42,654 bases of DNA from an uncultured bacterium (lineage in GTDB: Bacteria > Cyanobacteriota > Vampirovibrionia > Gastranaerophilales > Gastranaerophilaceae): assembly GCA_947073645.1 (NCBI GenBank), contig CAMTMK010000016.1, positions 1 through 42,654 of the forward strand, given 5' to 3'. The position numbers and the translations under genes were made by a program. Positions 29,966 through 31,622 of this stretch are shown piece after piece (within the stretch, counting starts at the first letter, position 1; each line of letters opens with the position of its first letter). Under the pieces are notes generated by a model, which did not search any database, was not told the origin of the DNA, and saw only the letters and a list, made by a program, of their open reading frames with translations.

Positions 29966-30040
29966 TTTAATATCTCCTATATTAATAATAATATAAAAAA
30001 CGGTTATTTAGCTGATAATTAATAATTTTTTAATGAATAC

Positions 30041-30069
30041 TTGACAAATTTCAGAAAATCGTAAATAAT
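30041..30069 (+). promoter_or_regulatory. promoter of a short plus-strand RNA
   Basis: TTGACA (30041-30046), a 17-bp spacer, AATAAT (30064-30069). No plausible coding sequence follows on this strand; a terminator-like hairpin lies at 30145-30183. Confidence 0.7.
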
Positions 30070-30075
30070 GAAAAA

Positions 30076-30194
30076 GTAGGGCGAGCCCTTAACAACTTAA
30101 GCGTAACTGTTAAGAGCTTCTTTGCACCCTATAGTTTAACTTTTAATGCTATTACTGCTATTGCAAATGACAGTAATAGCATTGTTATTTTGTT
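30076..30194 (+). ncRNA. candidate small antisense RNA
   Basis: Bounded by the 30041 promoter and the hairpin with stem AATGCTATTACTG (30145-30157)/CAGTAATAGCATT (30171-30183) and U-rich tail. About 120 nt. A second stem, CTTAACA with TGTTAAG, can form near its 5' part. It is complementary to nearly the whole 23-codon minus-strand frame at 30129-30200. This and the peptide fill the 301-bp gap between the dnaJ-like gene and the HTH gene. Confidence 0.5.
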
Positions 30195-30200
30195 AACCAT
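30129..30200 (-). CDS. candidate 23-residue hydrophobic peptide (type I toxin-like)
   Basis: Reverse-strand ATG at 30200, 23 codons, TAG. The peptide starts MVNKITMLLLSFAIAV and ends with Lys residues, so it is a single short transmembrane helix flanked by charge, the form of type I toxins such as Ibs, Ldr or TxpA. An AAAGGAGG SD (30218-30211) lies 10 bases upstream, one of the best in the window. It follows the XRE gene on the same strand after a 66-bp gap. A promoter-driven RNA on the opposite strand covers it. Too short to be found by length; evidence is the SD, composition and antisense arrangement. No homologue is claimed. Confidence 0.5.
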   Translation of the reverse strand: MVNKITMLLLSFAIAVIALKVKL

Positions 30201-30266
30201 AGTTTTCAACCCTCCTTTCGTCCAATTTCTTTGTAATTGCGTGTGACGAGGGATGTTGAGTGTGCC

Positions 30267-30596
30267 CTACTCTTTTAAAAATTCTTTTAAATCTTTTATG
30301 GATTTTAGGATGTGTTTAAGAGTTTTAGTGTCAAGATTTTCGGTTTCTTTTAGAATAAGTGCCTGTAAGGCATTTGGAGTGTTGGCATCGTCTGCCTTGA
30401 ATAATTCAAAGTATTGTATGTCCAGAGCTTCGGCAATTTTTTGCAAAGTCTTGAATGACGGAGCACGTTTGCCTGTTTCTAACATACCGACAAAAGCTGG
30501 TTCTACGCCAACTATTTCTGAAAGTTTTTCTTGCGTTATATTTCTTTCTGCCCTAAGTTTTTTTAATCTTTTGCTAAATGCTAAATATATATCCAT
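30267..30596 (-). CDS. XRE-family HTH regulator
   Basis: 109 residues. HTH_3 domain at about residues 8-65 (LKKLRAERNITQEKLSEIVGVEPAFVGMLETGKRAPSF...), then a helical C-terminus of about 40 residues that may dimerise. No clear SD; the ATG at 30596 follows TATACT closely. The intergenic region toward the next, divergent gene carries nested palindromes that may be its operators. The candidate toxin-like peptide gene is downstream on the same strand. Its sequence resembles the second XRE protein at 30970 only at the fold level. Confidence 0.9.
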   Translation of the reverse strand: MDIYLAFSKRLKKLRAERNITQEKLSEIVGVEPAFVGMLETGKRAPSFKTLQKIAEALDIQYFELFKADDANTPNALQALILKETENLDTKTLKHILKSIKDLKEFLKE

Positions 30597-30605
30597 GAGT
30601 ATAAA

Positions 30606-30665
30606 TTACAACTCATTGTATATATAATCTATTAACGACATGTTTATGATAAACAATTAGTTGTA
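30606..30665. promoter_or_regulatory. nested palindromes in the divergent HTH intergenic region
   Basis: Inner palindrome TGTTTATGATAAACA at 30641-30655 (7-bp arms, one-base centre). Outer arms TTACAACT (30606-30613) and AGTTGTAA (30658-30665). They lie between the XRE gene (-) and the GerE-type gene (+); a regulator binding here could control both. A -10-like TATAAT occurs at 30622-30627. Confidence 0.55.
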
Positions 30666-30743
30666 AAATTTGGAAATATTATTAACAAATTCAAAATTAA
30701 AAGAGTTATACTTATAGATAGATACTAACTATAAGGAGATAAA

Positions 30744-30986
30744 ATGATTACTGATATTTACTCCAAATATTACGATTTAGCTGACACGGATATGTTGTTC
30801 TATCTATTTTCAGGCAAGACTTATGCGCAGATTGCGCAGGAATATTACCTTTTTGATTTAAACAAGGTTTTGTATAAGGTAAGAAAACTCCGCGAAAAAT
30901 TATGTTTAAGAAACCGCCGTCAGCTTGTCTATTTTGCGCTTGTGAACGGTTTGGTGGATGCGGATATGATTAGTTGTAATCTTTGA
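30744..30986 (+). CDS. solo LuxR/GerE-type HTH protein
   Basis: 80 residues. From about residue 20 it reads as a GerE helix-turn-helix: FSGKTYAQIAQEYYL, then KVLYKVRKLREKLCLRNRRQLVYFALVNGLV, the last helices of LuxR-type DNA-binding domains. No receiver or ligand domain is attached. SD AAGGAG six bases before the ATG. Its last 17 bases overlap the end of the convergent XRE gene. Confidence 0.78.
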   Translation: MITDIYSKYYDLADTDMLFYLFSGKTYAQIAQEYYLFDLNKVLYKVRKLREKLCLRNRRQLVYFALVNGLVDADMISCNL

Positions 30987-31290
30987 TATAAGTATCAAGT
31001 ATTGCATTGACAAAATCTAATGTTTTATCATCAACTTTTTTAAGTTTCATAGAAATATTGTCAAGTTTATCACTTGTTTTATTTCCAAAAGTAAATAAAT
31101 CCTTAAATTCAACATTTAAGGCAGTTTTTATGCATTCAAGGTTTTCAGGTTTTGGATATGATTCCCCTGTTTCTATCTCACTTAGAGAATTTCTGGACAT
31201 ACCAATTTTTTCAGCAAATAATTCTTGGGAGAATTTATTTAATTTTCTTAATTGTTGTATTCTTTTGCCTAGTTTTTTTCTTAAATCCAT
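30970..31290 (-). CDS. XRE-family HTH regulator
   Basis: 106 residues. HTH at about residues 8-62 (IQQLRKLNKFSQELFAEKIGMSRNSLSEIETGESYP), followed by a helical, Lys/Asp-rich C-terminus. No SD before the ATG at 31290, only an A-run. It ends overlapping the upstream convergent GerE-type gene by 17 bases and is divergent from the next GerE-type gene. Together these form two XRE/GerE gene pairs on alternating strands. Confidence 0.9.
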   Translation of the reverse strand: MDLRKKLGKRIQQLRKLNKFSQELFAEKIGMSRNSLSEIETGESYPKPENLECIKTALNVEFKDLFTFGNKTSDKLDNISMKLKKVDDKTLDFVNAILDTYIKDYN

Positions 31291-31354
31291 TTTTTAATGA
31301 TATTTTATTTTTACATTTTCAACTACCATATAGTGGCTATTATTACGCAAGGTA

Positions 31355-31594
31355 ATGTATTGCAAAAATATGTTTTTATTGTATTCTTTACCTATGGATG
31401 AACTTACTCCGTTGGAATTAAGAGTTATGCGTCTGCTCGCAGAGGGGCTGGACGCTTTTTCTATTATGGATTGGCTCGGTATCGACTATTCTGAGTACGT
31501 CAAATGCAAAAATTCTATCCTCAAAAAACTCAAAATCAAAAGAATTGCTCAAATACTGCCGACTGCTGTCACTCTTGGTCTGATTGACTTTTAA
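31355..31594 (+). CDS. solo LuxR/GerE-type HTH protein
   Basis: 79 residues from the ATG at 31355, or 66 from the ATG at 31394 (MDELTPLELRVMRLL, the more typical GerE start); neither has a clear SD. The GerE-like pattern is LTPLELRVMRLLAEGLDAFSIMDWLGI, then KCKNSILKKLKIKRIAQILPTAVTLGLI. Basic recognition-helix residues are present. It ends 40 bp before atpD, so it could influence or be co-transcribed with the ATP synthase genes, though this is not shown. Confidence 0.72.
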   Translation: MYCKNMFLLYSLPMDELTPLELRVMRLLAEGLDAFSIMDWLGIDYSEYVKCKNSILKKLKIKRIAQILPTAVTLGLIDF

Positions 31595-31622
31595 TATGCT
31601 TGATTATATAATTAAGGCATAA

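Follow-up and report, generated by a model that had tools for sequence, protein, structure and literature searches.

Does a short hydrophobic frame lying opposite a promoter-driven RNA represent a type I toxin-antitoxin module? The question was raised by the first-pass annotation of the window, which here means the whole stretch of 42,654 nucleotides that was analyzed. The peptide frame, its Shine-Dalgarno (SD) sequence, the plus-strand promoter, and the terminator-like stem were all located where that annotation had placed them (Table 1). Of the two arms described as bracketing the unit, GCCCTACT (30264 to 30271) begins as given, and AGTAGGGC (30075 to 30082) begins one base ahead of the position reported for it, 30076. 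The plus-strand promoter is the best promoter-like site of the region, and 6 nt beyond it lies GTAGGGC (30076 to 30082). The expected plus-strand RNA of about 120 nt is matched by a predicted transcript of approximately 116 nt, which would be complementary to the mRNA 3' untranslated region (3'UTR) and would reach into the peptide frame as far as approximately codon 4. Recurrence in many genomes, conservation of the antisense promoter, and a fold of the 195-nt window mRNA that lies 7.4 standard deviations below dinucleotide shuffles set the unit beyond chance.

TABLE 1 Positions of the features of the window copy
Feature	Position	Strand	Remarks
Antisense (antitoxin) promoter TTGACA-17-AATAAT	30041..30069	+	TTGACA 30041-30046, AATAAT 30064-30069, 17-nt spacer
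Predicted antisense RNA (antitoxin), ~116 nt	about 30076..30191	+	Ends inferred from promoter spacing and terminator-like hairpin
Terminator-like hairpin of antisense RNA, made by peptide codons	30145..30183, arms 30145-30162 / 30166-30183	+	
U-rich tail 3' of hairpin, GTTATTTTGTT	30184..30194	+	Spelled by opposite-strand peptide codons
23-codon frame MVNKITMLLLSFAIAVIALKVKL, candidate toxin	30129..30200; ATG at 30200, TAG 30131-30129	-	One hydrophobic helix, GRAVY 1.76
Shine-Dalgarno AAAGGAGG	30211..30218	-	GGAGG in nearly all aligned copies
Start-codon element CUAUG, partner of stop-codon element	30198..30202	-	Pairing, covariation, predicted folds
Stop-codon element CUAUAGGG	30127..30134	-	Stop UAG pairs with CUA overlapping start codon
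Predicted mRNA 5' end GUAGGGC, pairs with 3' end	30264..30270	-	Promoter spacing, predicted folds
mRNA 3' end GCCCUAC	30076..30082	-	5'-3' pairing predicted in 95/96 copies
mRNA 3'UTR hairpin AGCUCUUAACA...UGUUAAGGGCU	30084..30118	-	Sense-side wobble
5'UTR with SD-pairing stretch, CCCUCGUC against GACGAAAGGAGGG	30211..30252	-	Predicted fold

A DNA search of relatives revealed that the segment from 30040 to 30252 recurs at unrelated places, both in the window genome and in others. A covariance model was built from 19 copies and applied to genus, class-wide, and phylum-wide genome samples. It returned nine matches in the window genome, making the unit (30041 to 30270, approximately 230 bases) one of at least nine copies. 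Matches were obtained in 25 of 33 genomes of the genus and in 95 of 289 genomes of the class-wide sample, 94 of which belong to one family, the remaining one being a marginal hit outside it (E value of 0.007). In the phylum-wide sample, all among the matches listed fell within the same single family. The named records of near relatives are "Candidatus Gastranaerophilales" and "Candidatus Melainabacteria" metagenome-assembled genomes (MAGs). Subsequent comparisons used a set of 135 distinct copies. Tandem arrangements exist, with three copies each in G299:C22 and G267:C18. Copies within one genome are mutually diverged, with a mean identity of 0.62 to the nearest, as would be anticipated for antisense RNAs that each act on a cognate mRNA. 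The single locus originally proposed is thus a multicopy family, and its interpretation as a candidate type I unit is supported by the comparison of these copies. In Rfam, nothing matched the unit above the gathering score; only tRNAs were detected in the window, along with subthreshold chance hits. Eight family peptides had no significant match in Pfam, NCBIfam, or PHROGs.

The antisense promoter is strikingly uniform. Among 122 copies, 116 retain 11 or 12 of its 12 consensus bases, 109 have a 17-nt spacer, and in 117 it stands 6 nt before a GTAGGG start. The sense promoter is less strong and differs more between copies (mean score of 9.0, compared to 7.3 in shuffles); in many copies, a TATAAT is found about 6 nt ahead of a GTAGGG-like start. 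Since both promoters sit approximately 6 nt before GTAGGG, both transcripts are predicted to start with the same GUAGGG. In the alignment, the conserved unit spans promoter to promoter and ends there on both sides. The idea of a mobile repeat that ends at the GTAGGGC/GCCCTAC arms was accordingly discarded, as conservation extends past the arms to both promoters. At five loci (L022, L027, L031, L033, and L036), neighbor genes on the plus strand terminate only a few bases from the antisense -35 element, and their TGA stop codon may come from its TTGACA.

In the window copy, the sense promoter is unrecognizable, with 7 of 12 consensus bases at best. This copy may therefore be silent, weakly expressed, or read through from the XRE gene (30596 to 30267, minus strand). 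The latter had been reported just upstream of the peptide and is indeed present. It is directly adjacent to the unit and shares its strand, with the TAG stop codon (30269 to 30267) lying inside the second arm and overlapping the mRNA 5' element, and a near-identical relative (L024) also carries an XRE-type gene at this site. A two-gene operon with read-through from the XRE gene, possibly under its control, is hence a tentative option for the window copy, and a variant of the type I-like reading and not an alternative to it. However, a dedicated sense promoter is present in most copies, and many lack an XRE neighbor. As a component of the unit the gene was rejected, because, among the copies for which long flanks were examined, roughly half have no such gene beside them and the gene varies among the others. 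Furthermore, it belongs to a stretch of approximately 1.6 kb (30267 to 31600 noted) that holds two XRE-type and two other small HTH-like open reading frames (ORFs), the XRE gene included. The window copy is located at the left edge of this stretch, which lies between dnaJ and an ATP-synthase-beta-like gene and is absent from the relative G010, where only about 45 bases are present.

An SD sequence followed by a short hydrophobic frame was detected in 128 of the 135 distinct copies, opposite the conserved promoter. Conservation of the frame relative to the antisense strand, on which the first-pass annotation had made its proposal depend, was therefore borne out. The encoded peptides have a mean GRAVY of 1.8, and a small, mostly hydrophobic peptide with its own SD is a type I trait. 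Frames are mostly 24 residues long, nearly all within 21 to 30. The peptides are nearly all hydrophobic with few basic residues, mostly with a net charge of +1 to +3, and form 32 clusters at 80% DNA identity, ranging from MVDKIIMLLLAFSIAVIALNLKP-like to MTKEIIKTIITVIITVLKIIIIWL-like. A pN/pS of 0.57 over 522 pairs indicates moderate purifying selection; this value is expected for a dual-coded 23-mer, yet it is no proof of a working peptide. Of the 7 copies without a called frame, most are damaged in the SD, the start codon, or the frame, and 6 retain the antisense -35 element.

Conservation of frame and RNA would look the same if the product were a nontoxic small membrane protein, such as a regulator of a membrane complex, held low by a cis-antisense RNA. 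The wide variation of peptide types, in which hydrophobicity is kept rather than sequence, could also be accommodated by such a protein. We nevertheless regard this explanation as unlikely, since tolerance of hydrophobic helices to sequence change is itself a type I trait, and since the multicopy and tandem occurrence, the toxin-side lesions with a retained antisense promoter, and the presence of a copy on phage DNA all resemble type I loci. A dispersed noncoding element (a regulatory RNA or miniature mobile repeat) with an incidental frame, compatible with the multicopy occurrence in varied neighborhoods, the presence or absence at the same site, and the strong structure of the unit, is highly improbable given that the frame with its SD is kept so consistently, that the distance from start codon to UAGG is in frame in 107 of 124 copies at several lengths, that hydrophobicity persists across peptide types, and that the unit is bounded by two facing promoters with no terminal repeats.

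To assign the hairpins to a strand, we made use of the fact that a G-U pair tolerated in the strand using a stem is a C-A mismatch on the other strand. Stems were located with a score that treats both wobble types alike, and wobbles were then counted per strand. The hairpin within the codons displayed 115 antisense-type and 15 sense-type wobbles, compared to an antisense/sense ratio of 0.82 after synonymous-codon randomization. As the copies are related and wobble counts are not independent, counts by cluster are safer; these were 26 antisense and 1 sense. For 98 of 128 copies, the hairpin, which is formed by the peptide's own codons as had been claimed, exceeded the synonymous-codon null at P < 0.05. 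Of 162 isoleucine codons that precede the hairpin, 136 are ATA, compared to 128 of 622 in window genes, a bias that places U in the antisense tail. The antisense U content was above the synonymous null in 107 of 116 copies. Owing to the antisense-side wobble, the excess over the synonymous null, and the U-tract spelled by ATA codons, the codon hairpin looks like a terminator selected on the antisense RNA. A MAFFT alignment places the codon hairpins of different peptide types out of register, and RNAalifold consequently recovered only six pairs from it; per-copy pairing tests were used instead.

The opposite asymmetry was observed for the 3'UTR hairpin, with 184 sense and 8 antisense wobbles (31 and 0 by cluster). 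At the ends of the frame, 97 of 124 copies use the UAG of a UAGG motif as their stop codon, and the start element CUAUG pairs with the stop element YRUAG. Pairing beyond these fixed letters reached 0.651, compared to 0.483 with shuffled partners, a value attained by none of 2,000 shuffles when one copy per cluster was used. The existence of the helix is better supported by this shuffling of the outer columns than by the wobble asymmetry between start and stop, which is partly forced by the fixed AUG. Base-pair evidence thus suggests that the 3'UTR hairpin and the start/stop helix operate in the mRNA and not in the antisense RNA. The notion that both strands fold consequently holds in a modified form: according to the wobble asymmetry, each strand uses its own structures, and selection on the codon hairpin acts through the antisense RNA. 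For the SD-pairing stem of the 5'UTR, wobbles gave no clear strand.

The GTAGGGC/GCCCTAC arms are predicted to be the two mutually pairing ends of the mRNA. Both the 5' GUAGGG and the UAGGG of the stop element are able to pair with the 3' CCCUAC, and compensatory changes were found for each. Among predicted folds of the full-length mRNA from 96 copies, 95 contained the 5'-3' pairing and 79 the start-stop helix, and both the SD and the AUG were closed (median unpaired values of 0.08 and 0.01, respectively). When the 3' end was removed from the predicted folds, the SD stayed closed, so the known AapA activation route was not reproduced. Removal of the stop element freed the AUG only.

Sequence comparison of the copies establishes a family with its promoter, frame, and pairings, together with the strand on which each hairpin matters; from these we infer a course of transcription, termination, duplex formation, mRNA opening, and toxicity as follows. 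The minus strand would yield an mRNA of about 195 nt for the membrane peptide, 23 residues long in the window copy, which is probably harmful if made freely. Full-length mRNA would be shut in three ways, by pairing of its ends (GUAGGGC with GCCCUAC), of the start codon with the stop-codon region, and of the SD with the 5'UTR. The strong, highly conserved plus-strand promoter would produce the antisense RNA against the 3'UTR and most of the frame. Because the hairpin and U-tract resembling an intrinsic terminator lie inside the toxin codons, this RNA is predicted to halt before the SD. It probably pairs with the mRNA, leading to mRNA destruction or a translation block, and toxin would be made once the antisense supply fails. 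On this sequence evidence, we consider the family likely to be a type I-like toxin-antitoxin module.

Set beside known systems by description, the family appears to work most like AapA/IsoA of Helicobacter (PMC6733600). According to the part of that source consulted, AapA/IsoA likewise has several chromosomal copies with module-specific antitoxins, an mRNA of about 200 nt for a peptide of about 30 amino acids opposite an antisense RNA of about 80 nt, long-distance 5'-3' pairing, and sequestration of the SD. In contrast, IsoA is transcribed from a promoter within the AapA ORF and occludes the SD, whereas the antisense promoter of the new family lies downstream of the ORF and its RNA is predicted to stop inside it, near 30191 in the window copy, short of the SD. 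A helix between start and stop codons is not among the features described there. Ibs/Sib of Escherichia coli (PMC4147584) resembles the family in being a multicopy repeat of about 140 nt, with a very short hydrophobic peptide and an opposite-strand antisense RNA across the ORF. Sib, however, spans the whole ORF and the SD, a full cover that is not predicted for the RNA ending at the hairpin in the toxin codons. TxpA/RatA, BsrG/SR4, and par (Fst) share the convergent transcripts with 3' overlap (PMC4147584). TxpA is longer, at 59 amino acids, and in par the two transcripts overlap only beyond the coding region and have a common terminator, whereas the terminator-like hairpin of the new family is inside the coding region and antisense specific. 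MsoT1/MsoA1 of Microcystis (PMC12390103) is likewise a type I candidate, from within the wider cyanobacterial lineage, and is set apart, by description only, by its putative toxins of 39 to 81 amino acids and its photosynthetic host. In the limited open-access literature searched, no account was found of a toxin gene whose codons contain the terminator of its antitoxin. The best reading is thus a new family of type I-like modules that matches no known family searched and is unusual in this placement of the terminator.

The unit occurs in differing gene neighborhoods and is present or absent at the same site between genomes. Four sites with the same neighbors, named by ORF reading as gatA-like, acyltransferase-like, M48-peptidase-like, and polyprenyl-synthase-like, carry different peptide types in different genomes (L029/L030/L032 versus L034, L033 versus L040, L035 versus L023, and L021 versus L025). 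At the gatA-like site, the transcribed part is 69 to 71% identical between types and 95 to 98% identical within a type, and the flanks are mostly 73 to 92% identical. This pattern suggests exchange of the transcribed cassette; repeated insertion at the shared sites is another conceivable origin. With somewhat less confidence than the module assignment itself, we favor the view that the toxin gene is doubly coded. Its codons would give both a membrane-active peptide and the terminator hairpin and U-tract of its own antitoxin, and its start and stop codons would lock the message, so that neither toxin nor antitoxin could change alone; exchange at fixed chromosomal sites appears to involve the transcribed cassette as a whole.

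Before the Microcystis candidate of 2025 (PMC12390103), type I systems had been described as known from no groups other than Proteobacteria, Firmicutes, and Tenericutes. If our reading is true, a nonphotosynthetic gut relative of cyanobacteria harbors a large family, undescribed in the literature searched; a single genome carries as many as nine diverged copies, and one copy resides on a phage contig. The arrangement of the family provides a natural test of the extent to which two genes can share sequence, as peptide, antisense terminator, and mRNA lock occupy the same approximately 70 bases. Strand-specific wobble asymmetry inside tiny frames is a suggested route to search for such modules elsewhere.

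Two records with other taxonomic names also matched. A "Fusobacterium" MAG (L048, JAMPIJ010000002.1) was rejected as a sign of a wider host range, as its contig equals in length (248502) that of G230:C22, which is placed in the family of the window genome; the record is probably a mislabeled MAG. A "Muribaculaceae" MAG with a similar isolate name was matched as well (L044). Phage and plasmid collections contained no DNA match to the window copy, and IMG/VR held one copy with the window peptide type and none with a second peptide type. The phage-contig copy (L060:4977-5141, IMGVR_UViG_3300010163_000078) lies between ORFs read as tape-measure-like and baseplate-like, a setting that resembles the structural operon of a contractile-tail phage.
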